NCBI RefSeq assembly: GCF_000378185.1 | Contig: NZ_KB899376.1 | Span: forward strand, 152,357 to 216,356 | Length of the DNA: 64,000 bases | Source: Salinimonas chungwhensis DSM 16280 | Lineage (GTDB): Bacteria > Pseudomonadota > Gammaproteobacteria > Enterobacterales > Alteromonadaceae | Reading direction: 5' to 3' | Shown: positions 39,652 through 46,862 of the stretch, piece after piece | Numbering within the stretch: the stretch's first letter is position 1 | Layout: the number at the start of each line of letters is the position of its first letter | Program-made: the position numbers and the translations under genes | Notes under the pieces: model-generated | What the model was told of the DNA's origin: nothing | The model's database searches: none | The model's input: the letters and a program-made list of their open reading frames with translations, nothing else

Positions 39652-40227
39652 TTAAGTACGGCGACGAAGTAGTAAAATACCAGAGGTAAGTATCAGCAAG
39701 GCTGATGCCGGGGCTGGAACAGCTACCTGTTCAGGCGCATCGGCATCAGTAACGCCATCCAACCAGACACTCCAGAATGTACCTTCATTACAATCGTTTG
39801 CTGGTTGGCACCACTCGCTCAACGCAATTGATTCCTCGGAATCGTAGGCAAAACCGTCAGCCAGAGTATCGCCTATTGCGAAGTTGCTATATGTAGCAAC
39901 AGTGAAGATATAATCTCCCGCTGCAAGAAATGGCAGAATAAAGCCTGAATCAAAAATGGTTTGAGTATCAGGGTTTATTGCGGCGTCATCATCATTTTCA
40001 TCCAGGAGATTGCCAGCGCCATCCCAAAGGGCGGTTATAGGATCAAAGTTTTCACCACCTAAATGGGAATCTGTCCATACTCGTACATTTTCGGTATCTT
40101 CAGCAACTGAAAAGTTAATTTGGACCACATCATTATGAAAGGCAATATTGCCGGTGAAATTTATCAGACTGGCATGGGCCGATGAAACACAACAAAACAG
40201 CGTAATTGCTAATAGTTTTCTTAACAT
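39652..40227 (-). CDS. PEP-CTERM-type secreted protein (DVUA0089-like)
   Basis: A 191-residue exported protein: signal peptide (about 1-19, ending SSAHA), a beta-rich domain with DDDAAINPDTQTIFDSGF and GDYIFTVATYSNFA as in DVUA0089-family proteins, and a C-terminal sorting tail VPAPASALLILTSGILLLRRRT: the VPAPA variant of the PEP motif, a membrane helix and a basic cluster. Start at 40227 because GAGGAAAAT lies upstream. Such tails are cut by an exosortase, which is not in this window. Confidence 0.8.
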   Translation of the reverse strand: MLRKLLAITLFCCVSSAHASLINFTGNIAFHNDVVQINFSVAEDTENVRVWTDSHLGGENFDPITALWDGAGNLLDENDDDAAINPDTQTIFDSGFILPFLAAGDYIFTVATYSNFAIGDTLADGFAYDSEESIALSEWCQPANDCNEGTFWSVWLDGVTDADAPEQVAVPAPASALLILTSGILLLRRRT

Positions 40228-40683
40228 GAATTTTCCTCGTAAAATCAACATTGTATTGCTTTTTCAAACTACTTTTAAAAGCAAAAGTCTTAAGCAAAAA
40301 ACGCGCTCTATTTGAAATGTTTTTATTTTACTTGCGGTTAGAGGAAATAATGCTGTCGTATATTCAAATATGTAAAAGAAACTGACAGCTTTTTAACAGT
40401 CAATCGGATAATTATTTTGAAGGTTACAATAACTCCTATCTCTGTTTTTACTCTTAACGTAGATTGCGAACCAGCGCCTTACTAATTCTAACCGAAATCA
40501 CATTTTGTATTGTAAGGTCGTTTAAACCTCGTAGTCACAATCACGGACACTTTGAACAACCCAGTTGGTTGTTTGCATTCGAAATAATTGCACAGCCTGT
40601 TTTTGTGGCGTCAACTTTTAATAAACGCGCCCCTATAATCTGACTCAGGGTAAAACAAATATCCGCATTTATCTGCGATGGGA
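40228..40683. other. Intergenic region downstream of the Fap-like operon
   Basis: 456 bp, AT-rich, without supported gene. It holds the promoter of the PEP-CTERM gene and the 3' end of the minus-strand operon. A weak hairpin, AACAACC (40555-40561) with GGTTGTT (40567-40573), could be the operon terminator but lacks a T-run. Confidence 0.4.
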
Positions 40684-41112
40684 TTAGTTCGTTATATTTT
40701 GATAAAAAAGCGTCTCATACAAATGGGTCTGAGCCATGCCTTTTTGAACATCGCCAAGCCGGCTTAATGAGATATCAATATGTGTTAACGAGGACAGGAT
40801 TTGATCATTTAAATTATTTTGCAAAACTGTACGAAGCTCATTTCCCGGTAGTAAGTCGGTTGATAAATTAACCGCATCGGCAGTATCAAAGTAGGTATTA
40901 CTGACAGGGTCGCCATTGACGAATAATTGCTTATCATATCGAATGTTTACAATCATGCCATTTTCTAATAAAAAACCTGCCCGCAGCGTGTCCAGCTCTG
41001 TATCAGAAACCTGTTGCCAGGCTATCTTATGTAAAGAATTTTCGGCCGTTGCATGCTCTGTACTTATACACAGCATTATCAGAGACAGGACGGTGCAAAG
41101 AAAGATTTTCAT
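40684..41112 (-). CDS. Small exported protein of the Fap-like locus (ELDxLR family)
   Basis: A 142-residue exported protein: signal peptide about 1-23 (ending EHATA), then ELDTLRAGF (39-47) and FLLENGMIVNIRYDKQLFVNG. The later part contains VLQNNLNDQILSSLTHIDISL (96-116). I recognise this layout (E-L-D-x-L-R-G/A, NG, then I-Q-N-x-L-x-N/D-Q) from uncharacterised proteins next to C39 peptidases, but cannot name it. The start at 41112 follows the peptidase stop by one base (TAA-A-ATG), so translation is coupled. Its job is inferred from the locus: minor fibre component or assembly factor. Confidence 0.75.
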   Translation of the reverse strand: MKIFLCTVLSLIMLCISTEHATAENSLHKIAWQQVSDTELDTLRAGFLLENGMIVNIRYDKQLFVNGDPVSNTYFDTADAVNLSTDLLPGNELRTVLQNNLNDQILSSLTHIDISLSRLGDVQKGMAQTHLYETLFYQNITN

Positions 41113-41113
41113 T

Positions 41114-41800
41114 TTAAAAATCCCAGTTTCCGGGAGCCACAACGCTTAATATATCCAGCCGTTGTATATCCACCGGCATGGCCAGATTAGCGGGCGCGTA
41201 TGGTTGCTGATGTTTGTCGAATTGATAATGATATGCCGCCACATCTTCATTATTCTGAATAAGAAAGAAGACATCATTTTCCCAAACGGCGTCAAATTCC
41301 TCCTGCGTCATAATCTTGAGTCCCACGGCTGGGTCGCCAACCACAATGCGATTATCTCGTTGCGCTTTTATAATCACAAAGTGCATATATCCGCCGGTGT
41401 TTATTATGGTGATGGCCGGTCGTTTTGCCTGCGCGAGCTGTTGTAATGTAATTCTGAAACCATTGGATATATAGCCGCGCCGAGTCAGATAACGCTTCAT
41501 ATCCAGTAATGAAAAACCCTGCGCCCGGATTTTTTCTTTATCACCGTGTTTGAACATATCTTTAAATACGCTCAGCTCATCTACAGTATCGTTGTAATGA
41601 AAGGACAACAGACTCGCCAGTGTGGCGGAACCACAACTAAAATCAAATTGTTGTCGGTAGATACGATCAAAGCGCTTATCAACCATACTTTCCAGGCGAA
41701 CGCTATAATCATCAGCAATATTTATCATGCCAGCGTTAGCCAGGTGCGTGCTTAGCAGCAGTGCAATCGCGGTTGTTGTTTTATTTAGTATGTATTTCAT
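41114..41800 (-). CDS. Exported C39-family peptidase (FapD-like)
   Basis: A 228-residue protein with signal peptide (about 1-23) and a lone C39 peptidase domain: oxyanion Gln50 and Cys56 in RQQFDFSCGSATLASLL, His140 in GGYMHFVIIK and Asp156 in VVGDPAVG. The surrounding QGFSLLDMKRYL is typical of FapD of the Pseudomonas fap operon. Unlike bacteriocin-processing C39 domains it is not fused to an ABC transporter and is predicted periplasmic. Its start overlaps the preceding stop (TAATG). Likely cuts or matures the exported proteins of this locus. Confidence 0.85.
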   Translation of the reverse strand: MKYILNKTTTAIALLLSTHLANAGMINIADDYSVRLESMVDKRFDRIYRQQFDFSCGSATLASLLSFHYNDTVDELSVFKDMFKHGDKEKIRAQGFSLLDMKRYLTRRGYISNGFRITLQQLAQAKRPAITIINTGGYMHFVIIKAQRDNRIVVGDPAVGLKIMTQEEFDAVWENDVFFLIQNNEDVAAYHYQFDKHQQPYAPANLAMPVDIQRLDILSVVAPGNWDF

Positions 41801-42147
41801 TAGTCTGGGTGAATGGTTACGGTGATAATGGTTGAGTCCTGAATGATGACATTATTACCGGTATTTTGAATTATTGAGAATACACCACTGGCCTCATTAA
41901 ATGAGCTGCCGTCAATGACGTTATTGCCTGTGACACTGTTTGAGGCATCATTATCTGCCAGTACCGCTTCTAAATTAGCGATATTGGTGATATCTAAAAT
42001 ACCGCTTAGACCACGTATTTCATCCAGCTCTTTGAGTTCCACCGGATGAGTGAATAAATTTGCCGGCGCGGGGGGAGTATCAGCTGACACAAATAACGGC
42101 AAGGCGAAACTCATCAGTGAACAGCTGAAGACATGTACGGGCTTCAT
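41800..42147 (-). CDS. Small exported protein with the F-x4-G-x5-QN-x-G-x-N motif
   Basis: A 115-residue exported protein: signal peptide (about 1-21, ending VSA), ELDEIRGLSG (40-49) and a C-terminal beta-strand segment with F83, G88, Q94-N95, G97, N99 and Q103. The latter pattern is the same, position for position, as that at the C terminus of the Asn-Ser-Asp repeat protein encoded upstream. I place the start at 42147 with RBS AAGGAAT. It is coupled to the peptidase gene by TAATG. Probably a fibre subunit or nucleator; not proven. Confidence 0.72.
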   Translation of the reverse strand: MKPVHVFSCSLMSFALPLFVSADTPPAPANLFTHPVELKELDEIRGLSGILDITNIANLEAVLADNDASNSVTGNNVIDGSSFNEASGVFSIIQNTGNNVIIQDSTIITVTIHPD

Positions 42148-42167
42148 AGCTATATTCCTTATAGGCT

Positions 42168-42187
42168 TGCCCGCCCTGCGGCGGGCA
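42168..42187 (-). terminator. Intra-operon hairpin after the repeat-protein gene
   Basis: TGCCCGCC (42168-42175) pairs with GGCGGGCA (42180-42187), loop CTGC. It lies between the repeat-protein stop and the next gene and has no strong T-run on the minus strand. It could protect the upstream message or lower downstream expression, so that the main subunit exceeds the accessory proteins. Confidence 0.5.
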
Positions 42188-42211
42188 TGCTTTTCAACCC
42201 TCAAACGACTT

Positions 42212-43447
42212 TTACTGAGCAGGATCCACGTTCACATTACCCTGGAAGGAAACCTGCTGCTGAACGAGCGCGTTCTCACCAACATTTTGCACATTCTGGT
42301 TGATACCTGCTGTGCCGGTGAAAGTGTTCTCCATACTGTTGCTCGCAGTGAGGCTGGCGCCATTATCCTGACTGTACTCAACATAATTTCCGGTTACGCT
42401 ACCGGTGAGTACTGACTCATTGACACTGTATGTTGCAGATACGGTAGCACCGTTATCTCCAGCTGCAGTGCCTGTGCCGTCACTCATGACTGAGCTGTTA
42501 TCGGAACTGTCAGTAGAACTTACTGAAGCAGTACTTCCACCATTTGCCGCGGCACCACCTTCATCGGCACTGGCGTAGCTGCTGTCTGAATTATCTGAAT
42601 TATCGGAGTTATCTGAGTTATCAGAACTATCTGAGTTATCTGAGTTATCTGAGTTGTTGGAATTATCGGAGTTATCTGAACGATCACTCATTGCCGTACT
42701 GCCGTTGTTTGCAGCAGAATCGGTAGCACTGGCGTAACTGCCATCAGAATTATCGGAGTTATCCGAGTTGTCAGAATTATCCGAATTATTTGAGTTATCT
42801 GAGTTGTTGGAATTGTCCGAATTATCAGAGCTGTCTGAGTTATCGGACCGATCGCTCATCGCGGTGCTGCCATTATTGGCACCGGCATCTGTGGCACTGG
42901 CATAGCTTTGTTCTGAATTGTCGGAGCGGTCCGAGTTATCAGAATTATCGGAGTTATCCGAGCTGTCAGAATTATCAGACCGGTCACTCATAGCGGTACT
43001 GCCGTTATTGGCACCAGCGTCTGTTGAACTGGCATAGCTTTGGTCTGAATTATTCGAGCTGTCTGAATTGTCAGAATTGTCTGAATTGTTAGAGTTATCC
43101 GAGCTGTTTGAGTTATCGGAGTTGTTTGAGCGGTCGCTCATGGCAGAACTGTAGTTATTGGCGGCAGAGTCTGTACCCGCGGCGTTGCTGCCATCACTGT
43201 TATTTGAGTTGTCAGAGCTGTCACTGTTATCTGAGTTATTCGAATTATCTGTGCTGTAATCCGTCATTGCGGTGGAGTAATCGTTGGCAGCAGCAGACCC
43301 TGCACCGGTACTATCGGCAGTAGCTGTCGCTGTTTGAGAATCTATCACTTCATCAGCGGTGTTGGTAGGATTAGCAAATGCGCTAGCGGAAAGACCAAAT
43401 GCTATTGTCAAACCGGTGGCAAGTAAACTCTTATTAAAGGTTTTCAT
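42212..43447 (-). CDS. Exported Asn-Ser-Asp repeat protein, candidate amyloid/fibre subunit
   Basis: A 411-residue protein with signal peptide (about 1-26, ending SAFA). Residues about 60-300 are built of N-S-D triplets interrupted about every 40-45 residues by a linker such as YASATDAGANNGSTAMSDRS. The C-terminal ~110 residues are not repetitive triplets but beta-rich, ending in NTFTGTAGINQNVQNVGENA (F376, G381, Q387, N388, G390, N392, Q396). It contains no Cys. The start 43447 has RBS GGAG. Low complexity, Asn/Ser richness, neighbouring FapD- and FapF-like genes point to a secreted fibre subunit; it is not recognisably FapB or FapC. Confidence 0.8.
   Translation of the reverse strand: MKTFNKSLLATGLTIAFGLSASAFANPTNTADEVIDSQTATATADSTGAGSAAANDYSTAMTDYSTDNSNNSDNSDSSDNSNNSDGSNAAGTDSAANNYSSAMSDRSNNSDNSNSSDNSNNSDNSDNSDSSNNSDQSYASSTDAGANNGSTAMSDRSDNSDSSDNSDNSDNSDRSDNSEQSYASATDAGANNGSTAMSDRSDNSDSSDNSDNSNNSDNSNNSDNSDNSDNSDNSDGSYASATDSAANNGSTAMSDRSDNSDNSNNSDNSDNSDSSDNSDNSDNSDNSDSSYASADEGGAAANGGSTASVSSTDSSDNSSVMSDGTGTAAGDNGATVSATYSVNESVLTGSVTGNYVEYSQDNGASLTASNSMENTFTGTAGINQNVQNVGENALVQQQVSFQGNVNVDPAQ
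42581..43255. repeat. Tandem Asn-Ser-Asp coding repeat
   Basis: Degenerate 9-bp units (AATTCTGAT and synonyms on the coding strand) arranged in blocks of about 5 to 15 units, with five linker copies that encode (Y/N)-A-x-x-T-D-x-x-A-N-N-x-S-x-A-M-S-D-R-S. Codon use varies between units, so the repeat is kept at protein level and not by recent slippage alone. Confidence 0.9.
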
Positions 43448-43881
43448 TATTTCATTCTCCGTTGAAATGCGCTTTGTTGCCAACGACGATATTTGCCTGT
43501 TCGAAGCAACGATAACGCCTTTAAGGTTGGGTGTGGGGCTGACTCACTTCCGCCCGCTTCAAAACTTTAGTTCACGGCAAACTCAAAATTCCATCAAGAG
43601 GTGCTCAAAAAACACTCAAAATTTGCAATTACGAAATAATGCATCACACTTTTAACAGTTAGTGTATGTTCCGCATGGGCATCGAAAAATAAAAGAAGTA
43701 TGGAATATGTGTTGATGCTCAACCGACTATCGGGGGCAGCCCCAAGGGGGGTGACAGGGAACATGTGCTGACATCTCGTTAACTCGTACGTTAAGAGACA
43801 CTTTCGTTTCAACGGTTTATCTGAATGTTGAATGCAATCTTCGATCGTGTTCTCGCTGCTCATTTTGTCAAGGATACAATA
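43448..43881. promoter_or_regulatory. Divergent promoter region of the repeat-protein operon and its regulator
   Basis: 434 bp between divergent starts. It includes the direct repeat CGTTAA-N6-CGTTAA (43777-43782 and 43789-43794), spaced much like PhoB/OmpR-type half-sites, and a short GC hairpin (GGGGC-AG-CCCC, about 43734-43745). Operator role is a guess. No other gene is supported. Confidence 0.35.
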
Positions 43882-44661
43882 ATGACAGTATTATCTGATA
43901 ACCGCAGCATCATAGTTATATCAAAAGACATCTCATTTTCGGCATTGATGACTGGTTATTGCCGAAGTAAAAAGCTAACGGTGACCTGCCTGAATACGTT
44001 AAATGGCTCAAGCTCGTGTGATGATTTAAACGTAACCGACTTGATGGTAATTGATGCAAGATACTCTGCTGAGCAGTTCGCGTCTGATTTTCATCAGATC
44101 ATCGACATCGCGAGCCATAGCAGTGGACTGCCGATACTGGTTGTGTATAGACAAAACGTCCCCCCGCAAGCGCGTGCTTACTCAAACCTGACATTCATTG
44201 AAGAGTTTGAAATCCTGCCCGAACTCGATCGTTTATTCAATAATACGCGAGTGCCAGGTTCAGGCTATGAAAGACGGGTAAAAGAACGGCGCCGGTGTCC
44301 GGACAGGCGTATTTCATCGAACCATAATGGGCAAGTGAAAAAGATTGAAACCCGTGCTGACTCGCCTGTTCAGATTGGCGATATCTGCGTAAATTATCAG
44401 ACCAAAACAGTGTTCAAAAACAACCGCGATCTACAACTGACCCGAAAAGAATTTGACCTGTTTACCATGCTTTTATCTGAGCGGTCTCAGGTCTATACCG
44501 CCGAATTTATTATGAAGCAGCTTTGGCCTAATACCTCCCGGGCCAACAAATCCGACCTTTATCAGTATATTCATACACTACGCAAAAAACTCGAGCCTGA
44601 TCCTTGCGACCCCAAATGTTTGCTTACGGTCAAAGGGGTAGGTTACCAGCTTTGTCTGTAA
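43882..44661 (+). CDS. PhoB/OmpR-type winged-helix regulator with degenerate receiver
   Basis: A 259-residue protein. The C-terminal ~95 residues form a Trans_reg_C winged helix (LTRKEFDLFTMLLSERSQVYTAEFI ... YQYIHTLRKKLEPD ... VKGVGYQL). The N-terminal ~125 residues look like a receiver domain with only one conserved Asp (LMVIDAR) and no clear acidic pair or Lys, so phosphorylation is doubtful. A basic linker (ERRVKERRRCPDRR) joins them. No histidine kinase is adjacent. It stands between the repeat-protein operon and the barrel gene and probably controls both. Start 43882 has RBS AAGGA. Confidence 0.78.
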   Translation: MTVLSDNRSIIVISKDISFSALMTGYCRSKKLTVTCLNTLNGSSSCDDLNVTDLMVIDARYSAEQFASDFHQIIDIASHSSGLPILVVYRQNVPPQARAYSNLTFIEEFEILPELDRLFNNTRVPGSGYERRVKERRRCPDRRISSNHNGQVKKIETRADSPVQIGDICVNYQTKTVFKNNRDLQLTRKEFDLFTMLLSERSQVYTAEFIMKQLWPNTSRANKSDLYQYIHTLRKKLEPDPCDPKCLLTVKGVGYQLCL

Positions 44662-44674
44662 AATTAGTTATTTA

Positions 44675-45877
44675 TCAAAATGTAATAGGGACCCGCAGAT
44701 TTAACCGAATGTCCTGGGCATCATCAGTGACACCGACAGCCATTGATACATTTATATTGGTTGAAGGAGAGTAGCGGAACGAGTAACCAATAATCAGTTG
44801 ACCGATGTCCAGTTCGCTCCCATCAATTTTTACATCGTTTATCTTAGATTCAAGCACATGCTTATGGGCGTAGCTTACGCTCATTGACGTGCGGGCATTC
44901 AAAGATAACCCCAGTCCAAAACTAACCCCAATTCCATCTCCTGCATCGACTTCGCCAATCTCTTCATCCTCTATTTTTTCATTATAGGAATAGCTGACAT
45001 TACCAAAAAACACGCCCGGATCAGTCGGGTAAATCGCACTCAGACTTGGTTGAATACTCATGTAGCCGGCACCTGTAGGTAACTCGGTGGGAAAAACGGC
45101 GCCAGGTGTTGATTCAATAAATTCTACATCAAAAGGGCTAGTACCGGTTGGAAAGGAGGCCTGCAGATTAGCGACATAAATGATGCCGTTACCTGCCTCA
45201 TTGAGCTGATACCGGGTGGCAACCTGAATGTCCCCAAGCCCTTCACCACTTGCATCAAAAATCTCATCTTCGCTGACACTGACACTCACTGGTCGTGAGC
45301 GTTGCGTATCGTTTCTGGCAACATAAGGGGTTTTTACTTCTATTTCCCAGCGCTCGGTAAGCCCGTATTTCAGTGACAGGCTCGCAATAGCACTATGACG
45401 CTTCACTTCGCGAATATCGATAAGACCAACAATCAAAGCAGGAATAAATGAGTAACCATCAAGAAATACCCGATTATTATCATTGTAAGAATAGCTAAGT
45501 GAAGTCTCCATTGCCCATTGACCATCGCCCACTAATACCCCATTTCTACTGTTAGACTCCGGCAATGCTCTTACATCAGCCTCGGGCTCTGGCGGTTTCT
45601 GCCCTACGGGAGCCTGGGGTTGTGGGTTCGCAGCGGATGACCGGGTTGCTGTAAAAGCCTGCTTATTTGGTGGGGGCTCATCAGAATGGTGCTGCTTTTT
45701 TAATGCGTCGATTTCTTTTTGTAACTGCTCTATCAGCGCACCCTGGCGCCTCAACTCATCTTCATAAGCGGGTGACGATGCCGACTGTGCTGATGTCTGT
45801 GGTGCAAATACTAAAGCACAATTCAACATTACAAATAATGGTATTGCGACAGGCTGTTTCTGATTGAGGTGCTCCAT
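44675..45877 (-). CDS. Coiled-coil plus beta-barrel outer-membrane protein (FapF-like)
   Basis: A 400-residue exported protein: signal peptide (about 1-32), a short coiled coil (about 39-63, with heptads of Leu/Ile), a Pro/Gln/Ala-rich linker (64-105), and a beta-barrel domain (about 118-400) ending in NLRVPITF with terminal Phe. This is the architecture of FapF, the trimeric channel that secretes Fap amyloid in Pseudomonas. The barrel also resembles the MetA-pathway-of-phenol-degradation family. RBS AAGGAAA. It is transcribed from its own promoter, on the far side of the regulator gene. FapF homology is my inference from layout. Confidence 0.72.
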   Translation of the reverse strand: MEHLNQKQPVAIPLFVMLNCALVFAPQTSAQSASSPAYEDELRRQGALIEQLQKEIDALKKQHHSDEPPPNKQAFTATRSSAANPQPQAPVGQKPPEPEADVRALPESNSRNGVLVGDGQWAMETSLSYSYNDNNRVFLDGYSFIPALIVGLIDIREVKRHSAIASLSLKYGLTERWEIEVKTPYVARNDTQRSRPVSVSVSEDEIFDASGEGLGDIQVATRYQLNEAGNGIIYVANLQASFPTGTSPFDVEFIESTPGAVFPTELPTGAGYMSIQPSLSAIYPTDPGVFFGNVSYSYNEKIEDEEIGEVDAGDGIGVSFGLGLSLNARTSMSVSYAHKHVLESKINDVKIDGSELDIGQLIIGYSFRYSPSTNINVSMAVGVTDDAQDIRLNLRVPITF

Positions 45878-46217: not shown

Positions 46218-46862
46218 TTATCTGACCTTGCGTCTGTAAAGTGCAAGGCCGAAAAAACCACCGGCAAGTGCGCCGAAAAGCACAGGCTCGGAAACTTCAG
46301 CGGGCATAGGAGAGGTTGCAGCAAGACCAAACTGCGCGCCCATTAAGGCCCCTTCCTGTAGCTGAAAAACATCTTCCAGCAGTTCGCTGGCCGCGCTTAA
46401 AAAAGTAAGGGAAATCTGAGGATTATCCAAATCTGTTATGGCAGCGGCATCAAGGCCTGACAGATCAAGACTAAACAAATCCGTCATTCCTCCACCATTA
46501 ACATCTGCTGCCAGCGTTGCCGTGGTTGTGTCGATTAAAAAGTCGCTCAACACTACGGTTACATCATCGCTTTCGTCGTCTGTGCCTAAGTCCCCGGTTA
46601 AGCTTATACTGGATCCGGTGTGTTCAATGGTGCCTGCAAGAGAAGTGAAATCCAGATCTCCTCCGGTAATGCCAAAACCCAGAGTAAGCGGCTCTGCAGA
46701 AACTAACTCCCCGTTAAGCAGCGCCGGGGTGATGCCCAAATCCGCTAAAGGTGCCGTCACCTGAACATTGGTCTGGCCACCCATAATTGGCGCAGCAAAA
46801 ACCGGCGTATGAAACAAGATAGCAGCACCAGCAAGGGCGCCTGTTACGACTTTTTTCATCAT
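46218..46862 (-). CDS. Exported protein with PEP-CTERM-like tail
   Basis: A 214-residue exported protein: signal peptide (about 1-23, ending PVFA), a beta-rich, acidic domain with many Asp/Ser/Thr, and the C-terminal tail SEPVLFGALAGGFFGLALYRRKVR: EP, a hydrophobic helix and an Arg/Lys cluster, as in PEP-CTERM proteins although the PEP triad is incomplete (SEP). No Cys. Function unknown. RBS GAGG precedes the start. Confidence 0.7.
   Translation of the reverse strand: MMKKVVTGALAGAAILFHTPVFAAPIMGGQTNVQVTAPLADLGITPALLNGELVSAEPLTLGFGITGGDLDFTSLAGTIEHTGSSISLTGDLGTDDESDDVTVVLSDFLIDTTTATLAADVNGGGMTDLFSLDLSGLDAAAITDLDNPQISLTFLSAASELLEDVFQLQEGALMGAQFGLAATSPMPAEVSEPVLFGALAGGFFGLALYRRKVR

Follow-up and report, generated by a model that had tools for sequence, protein, structure and literature searches.

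A probable Fap-related export locus in Salinimonas chungwhensis and a predicted second leader for its lone C39 peptidase

What does a free-standing C39 cysteine peptidase cut when it is encoded among small exported proteins, and what may such a locus send out of the cell? The question is raised by positions 40,684-45,877 of a 64,000-nt stretch (the window) of Salinimonas chungwhensis DSM 16280, contig NZ_KB899376.1, where the peptidase gene lies in an operon with genes for an Asn-Ser-Asp repeat protein and two small proteins of 115 and 142 residues, close to genes for a regulator and an outer-membrane barrel (Table 1). An earlier note on this DNA had seen here a divergent relative of the Fap amyloid system of Pseudomonas (fapABCDEF). 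We put the probability at roughly 70% that the locus belongs to a widespread sister lineage of Fap and encodes a Fap-type exporter of surface fibres, whose FapE-like protein has a second leader cut by the C39 peptidase. Loci of the window's type are called type B below; there are 109 of them (the window, L036-L050, L063-L142 and L171-L183), or 108 distinct loci, since L111 and L179 are one and the same contig.

Components shared with Fap and their co-occurrence

In a phmmer search of the PDB the barrel protein matched the solved FapF chains 5o67, 5o65 and 5o68 (four distinct sequences, E=1.7e-32 to 5.9e-32). With the NCBIfam FapF model it reached 2.6e-41 and 141.8 bits, short of the equivalog cut-off of 700, and it retains both PTG motifs described for FapF (PMC5557850). 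It also matched the NCBIfam FilC model (6.5e-21, 75.1 bits, below the cut-off of 630). On these matches the barrel is a FapF homologue, as had been proposed before. Likewise, the lone C39 peptidase is by its matches a FapD/FilB relative, and its earlier equation with FapD stands: the NCBIfam FilB model (5.7e-39, 134.1 bits) edges the FapD model (4.9e-38, 130.6 bits) narrowly as top match, both staying under their curated cut-offs of 475 and 330, and Cys56, His140 and Asp156 are among the 27 columns invariant in 23/23 peptidase relatives. A profile built from these relatives finds the peptidase domains in LahT (6mpz, 1.5e-14), PCAT1 and ComA; by sequence, the C39 family is shared with the PCAT/AMS ABC transporters that process double-glycine leaders. 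In contrast to them, the window peptidase stands on its own and has a signal-like start, and the presumed leader sits behind a Sec-type signal peptide.

The other three proteins were related to Fap by profile-profile comparison. The 142-aa family aligned with FapE at 92% probability over 38 columns spanning the motif described below (score 45.6, against a maximum of 14.7 in eight shuffles), and we regard the 142-aa protein as FapE-like by this kind of comparison only: the NCBIfam FapE model gave no match to it at E<=1, which sets the locus apart from Fap proper. For the last 55 residues of the 115-aa family, comparison with 105 canonical Fap repeats (78 once redundant ones were removed) gave a probability of 94.2% across 34 columns (score 33.4; maximum of 20 column shuffles 14.8), and a 115-aa profile built without canonical loci finds the gene in the FapB slot in 14/24 canonical loci. 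The two small families also aligned with each other (97.5%, score 67.9 against a maximum of 17.3 in eight shuffles), and the C-terminus of the fibre-type proteins aligned with the 115-aa family (96.4%, 45.4 against 13.1 in shuffles). Judged from sequence, the 115-aa protein is FapB-like and ends in one Fap-type repeat, and the Asn-Ser-Asp protein has a C-terminus related to that module. The earlier statement that the candidate subunit is not FapB/FapC-like has therefore to be given up: the C-termini are Fap-related, directly in the 115-aa protein and through its module in the repeat protein.

One such module is present in 90/93 fibre-type proteins and four in 3/93 (L123 from Acidithiobacillus ferriphilus, L172 and L173), so that module number is not fixed in type B. 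The rest of the protein is of low complexity and depends on the taxon, being rich in Asn-Ser-Asp in many Gammaproteobacteria and Nitrosomonas and in Gly-Ala-Ser-Thr in many other Betaproteobacteria. In the window protein acidic residues (65) far outnumber basic ones (7). Two fibre-type genes stand ahead of the small gene in L077, L079-L081, L083, L085, L088, L094, L116, L122 and L128. The products of the locus may form fibres, possibly of the amyloid type.

The gene set recurs beyond chance, although some loci miss parts. In the type-B loci the gene after the peptidase gene is present in 109/109, the small gene before it in 106/109 and a fibre-type protein in 93/109. A FapF homologue is encoded in 105/109, on the same strand in 57 and on the opposite strand in 48; three of the four loci without a barrel are shorter than 10 kb, and the fourth, L066, has 12.7 kb. 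Among 345 genomes of the class, 14 carry type-B peptidases, at 237 to 336 bits with the next score at 170 bits, and each of them has a FilC/FapF-model match no more than about 3 kb from the peptidase. The fibre module was found in 12 of the 345, all within these 14 peptidase carriers. The co-occurrence that the earlier note had suggested looking for was thus found, as 12/12 class genomes with the fibre module also carry the peptidase and an adjacent FapF/FilC-type barrel. Neither of the two outcomes that would have refuted the earlier note, a barrel unlike FapF or a repeat protein apart from peptidase and barrel genes, was seen.

Closer to the window, a lone C39 relative at E<=6.6e-28 occurs in 26/394 genomes of the order, the window's own included, and by gene neighbourhood 15 of them are of the window's type and 11 are canonical fap loci. 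The barrel is present in 2/79 related genomes, the window's own and G026 (2/48 genomes of the same genus). The G026 copy (L036) looks decayed, with the barrel gene in two open reading frames (ORFs) and the 115-aa gene broken within the leader motif. A scan of named genomes matched at least 595 stretches and gave at least 580 confirmed peptidase relatives; the best 80, which were kept, include Paraglaciecola, Colwellia, Methylobacter, Nitrosomonas, Paraburkholderia, Cupriavidus, Massilia, Lysobacter, Geobacteraceae and others. Further loci come from plasmid records of Polymorphobacter (Alphaproteobacteria) and of the laboratory strain Cupriavidus metallidurans CH34. The fibre profile matches the fibre gene of the CH34 locus and gave no match in the Polymorphobacter locus, where the annotation has four hypothetical proteins and a C39 family peptidase for the five genes and where PEPxxWA-CTERM genes lie alongside. 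Type B is thus found in Gamma-, Beta-, Delta- and some Alphaproteobacteria.

A leader-like motif in the FapE-like protein

Behind the signal peptide of the window's 142-aa protein stand V35, L40, L43 and R44-A45-G46, with the predicted cut before F47. The corresponding pattern, [LM]xxxR[GA]G[FYL], is present in the 142-aa family of 108/109 loci, and the sole exception, L076, has its 142-aa-family gene in two pieces. In 108/108 the motif is encoded 3' of the peptidase gene on the same strand, and because the gene after the peptidase gene is missing from no locus, the count is not an artefact of a profile that picks motif carriers. By comparison, the pattern occurs in 26/7401 other ORFs of the examined loci, canonical ones included, and in 7/1879 of those with signal-peptide-like starts, three of the seven being of the 115-aa family. 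Two loci have several matches within the 142-aa-family protein (L110 two, L112 three).

Counted from the predicted cut, position -12 is hydrophobic (V/L/A/I/M) in 107/108, -7 is L or M in 108/108, -3 is R in 108/108, -2 is G in 104 and A in 4, -1 is G in 108/108 and +1 is F in 102/108; position -4 is variable, with L/M/I/Y in 77/108. Further upstream, at -30 to -16, each site holds about 0.4-1.0 bits of information, against 4.0-4.3 bits at -7, -3, -2, -1 and +1. The published consensus of C39 leaders is L(-12)xxxE(-8)L(-7)xxxxG(-2)G(-1), in which residues -10 to -4 bind the peptidase as a helix and -4 tunes specificity (PMC6959990; PMC6363468). In the predicted structure of the 142-aa protein a helix covers residues 37-44 (-10 to -3), and beta strands follow the motif. 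The window protein has the hydrophobic -12 and -7 (V35, L40) and the small -2 and -1 (A45, G46) of double-glycine leader substrates. This suggests that the RGGF-type motif is a leader signature of C39 peptidases. Since conservation at -12, -7, -2 and -1 fits the consensus, the 142-aa protein is predicted to be a substrate of the peptidase, and we infer cleavage after A45-G46.

The 115-aa protein of the window has a degenerate form of the motif (L41-D-E-I-R45-G46-L47). In its family [LM]xxxRG occurs in 81/106 and RGG in 48/106, compared with 4/93 fibre proteins having [LM]xxxRG within their first 120 residues.

These sites bear on the target of FapD, which has been described as unclear, with Fap proteins said to lack canonical C39 sites (PMC5557850); a 2025 review goes no further than to say that FapE and FapF are "thought" to fill this role (PMC12822426). 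FapE is the only Fap protein for which mass spectrometry found complete N-terminal processing in Pseudomonas (PMC5557850). Canonical FapE has [LM]xxxRG[RK][FY] in 23/24 loci (22/23 distinct ones), L052 having K for R, where the FapE-like protein of type B has R[GA]GF. It looks as if type B kept a canonical-looking form of the site from which Fap proper drifted, or the reverse. A near-invariant textbook C39 site in a FapE-like protein narrows the question of the FapD target to one mass-spectrometry experiment.

Several observations weigh against this reading of the locus. Residue -1 of canonical FapE is R or K and never G (24/24), which casts doubt on cleavage at this place, and E(-8) of the consensus is present in just 35/108 motif carriers. 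For the 142-aa protein, the predicted structure is of middling quality (mean pLDDT 74, pTM 0.47). In at least 8/108 loci the motif lies more than 1000 nt past the peptidase gene, which is odd for a short leader, and the Fap repeat itself opens with a superficially similar [LF]xxxxG pattern. Compared directly with Fap repeats, the fibre C-terminus reached 32.8% (19.4 against 12.6), and its link to canonical repeats is indirect. Finally, in 18/104 type-B barrels fewer than 60 residues, signal peptide included, precede the barrel and leave little room for a coiled coil. The periplasmic coiled coil, held critical for FapF in Pseudomonas (PMC5557850), is thus not general. The segment before the barrel has 57 to 158 residues in canonical FapF (n=23); the short type-B forms are L038, L040-L050 and six others.

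Some of these points would also fit a motif that is a folded or secretion-signal element, such as a cue for docking to FapF, and is not cut, with the C39 protein serving as a chaperone or cutting the linker of the barrel. R(-3) and F(+1) are nearly invariant yet not named in the published C39 consensus, canonical FapE has no G at -1, and FapF has been proposed as a FapD target (PMC5557850; PMC12822426). Nevertheless, we consider this unlikely, because conservation tracks the C39 recognition positions -12, -7, -2 and -1 (less so -4) and drops just upstream, and because the Cys, His and Asp of the peptidase are invariant. Moreover, FapD is essential for Fap secretion in Pseudomonas, and its C38A exchange abolishes it (PMC5557850). 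A further point against this alternative is that the type-B segment before the barrel varies from about 50 to more than 200 residues.

If the second leader is indeed cut, the locus may work as follows. All five exported proteins would enter the periplasm via Sec, where the FapD-like peptidase would bind the second leader of the FapE-like protein, which follows the signal peptide. V35, L40 and L43 would dock in its hydrophobic groove, and the cut would fall after R-A-G46 (R-G-G in most orthologues); the looser motif of the FapB-like 115-aa protein may be cut as well. The processed minor subunits would then prime or license the FapF-like barrel, presumably a trimer, as a gate, and the long acidic Asn-Ser-Asp protein would be secreted through it. 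Its single Fap-related C-terminal module could join the 115-aa module and form or anchor the fibre, leaving the Asn-Ser-Asp part as an exposed, variable coat. Transcription of the operon might be controlled by the divergent OmpR-type regulator. In a broader form, on which we are evenly divided, a large unnamed class of proteobacterial fibre exporters, with Fap as one branch, would mature its minor subunits through a second, periplasmic double-glycine leader (LxxxRGG|F in FapE-type and a looser LxxxRG in FapB-type proteins) that is cut after Sec transport and licenses export of an uncut fibre subunit. If true, such a leader rule would identify the FapD substrate, and it may extend to Fil-type loci.

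Relation to Fap, Fil and earlier surveys

The locus might also be an ordinary member of Fap that has merely diverged. It shares with Fap a FapF-type barrel, a FapD-type C39 peptidase with catalytic Cys and His, FapE-like and FapB-like minor subunits and a fibre candidate with a related C-terminal module. Moreover, a separate type-B clade is weakly supported in the tree (0.243), and L123 from Acidithiobacillus ferriphilus, with its four-module fibre protein, falls in type B, where Acidithiobacillus FapC has been reported with 4-8 repeats (PMC3792158); one branch of type B may therefore already be filed under Fap. On the other hand, no peptidase score in the 345 class genomes falls between 237 and 170 bits. 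The NCBIfam FapE model matches in 14 of these genomes, all with the lower-scoring peptidase group, and in 0/14 type-B loci, and G446, the only class genome with both types, holds them about 89 kb apart on one contig. The gene order fibre-B-D-E, with the barrel across the regulator, differs from the contiguous fap(A)BCDEF, and the window has no extra exported gene in the fapA position. Its fibre candidate has a large low-complexity part, and type-B fibre proteins mostly have one module where three repeats are normal in FapB and FapC.

The window subunits also do not fit the imperfect repeats of FapB and FapC. The minimal pattern G-x4-N-x3-G-x6-N (from PMC3792158) has 0 matches in both window subunits and is found in 16/93 type-B fibre proteins and 2/106 type-B small proteins, against 14/14 canonical FapB (those found via the 115-aa profile) and 21/21 FapC. 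Thus, we think mere divergence within Fap improbable and prefer a sister lineage.

The Fil "putative pilus system" of Acinetobacter (FilB and FilC in NCBIfam) likewise has a lone C39 peptidase beside a FilC/FapF-type barrel, and FilB is by a narrow margin the top match of the window peptidase. It is nonetheless a very improbable identity for the locus, since FapF outscores FilC as a match of the barrel (142 against 75 bits), the FilB and FilC scores given above stay below their cut-offs, and 0/5 examined Fil-like loci match the two small proteins or the fibre module. In two of these five (L188, L190), exported proteins of 300-490 aa by the FilB-type peptidase have an N-terminal LxxxTGQxG or similar, about where type B has LxxxRGG; a third lineage may here follow the leader rule proposed for type B. 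That the barrel imports hydrophobic compounds (Phenol_MetA_deg/COG4313 type) beside unrelated neighbours can hardly be credited, as its Pfam Phenol_MetA_deg match (4.1e-07) is far weaker than that to FapF and it is linked with exported proteins in 105/109 loci.

Relatives of FapD and FapF outside fap operons have been reported before. Dueholm in 2013 found that the FapD and FapF models match many such proteins and called them parts of larger families (PMC3792158), and a 2018 review listed co-located fapD-fapF homologues in five further phyla (PMC6173800). In a literature search that covered few subscription journals, we found no description of the five-gene set or of the RGGF site. The claim of the earlier note that no described system has exactly this set thus holds for the full set, but not for the fapD-fapF pairing, which is already in print. 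Published Fap surveys have been anchored on FapB/FapC repeats (PMC12822426). As type-B subunits miss the minimal repeat pattern, such surveys probably would not list type-B loci. They may miss a lineage that is about as frequent: of the 345 class genomes, 14 have type-B peptidases and 14 have FapE-model matches.

Layout of the locus and neighbouring genes

All six genes were located in the ORF list and sequence of the window (Table 1). The stop of the 115-aa gene overlaps the start of the peptidase gene by one base (TAATG), and a one-base gap separates the peptidase gene from the 142-aa gene, in line with the four-gene operon of the earlier note. All four operon proteins and the barrel have signal-like N-termini. 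By eye, the barrel likewise has a coiled-coil-like stretch, where a coiled coil was formerly noted, as well as the Pro-rich linker and the terminal Phe.

Table 1. Predicted features of the locus in window coordinates. Starts placed inside a longer listed ORF are likely ones, and signal-like starts were judged by eye.
Feature	Position	Strand	Remarks
Candidate fibre subunit, Asn-Ser-Asp repeat protein, 411 aa	42212..43447 (ORF to 43483)	-	likely ATG 43447; signal-like start, acidic repeats, conserved C-terminal module
Fibre module, C-terminal 75 aa of repeat protein	42212..42439	-	found in 12/345 class genomes, each of which has the peptidase
FapB-like minor subunit, 115 aa	41800..42147 (ORF to 42204)	-	likely ATG 42147; degenerate leader motif, one C-terminal Fap-type repeat
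Lone C39 cysteine peptidase, 228 aa, FapD/FilB relative	41114..41800	-	signal-like start; C56, H140, D156 invariant
FapE-like small exported protein, 142 aa	40684..41112 (ORF to 41142)	-	likely ATG 41112; signal peptide, then leader motif; predicted peptidase substrate
OmpR-type winged-helix regulator, 259 aa	43882..44661 (ORF from 43825)	+	Trans_reg_C 5.6e-19
FapF-type outer-membrane barrel, 400 aa	44675..45877	-	coiled-coil-like and Pro-rich N-terminal segment, two PTG motifs, terminal Phe

A regulator gene does lie inside the locus, as had been noted: the OmpR-type gene stands between the repeat-protein and barrel genes, divergent from the former and convergent with the latter. A Pfam search gave no receiver match in the N-terminal half of its product. 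A homologue occurs in 9/108 other type-B loci, always on the strand opposite to the operon. NtrC-like or LuxR-like genes were seen by eye near some other type-B loci, in a partial listing.

PEP-CTERM-like exported proteins flank the locus on both sides (39652-40251 and 46218-46862). One of them matches the DVUA0089 family at 1e-46, with the PEP-CTERM models themselves below cut-off, and an exosortase above cut-off is encoded elsewhere in the same genome.

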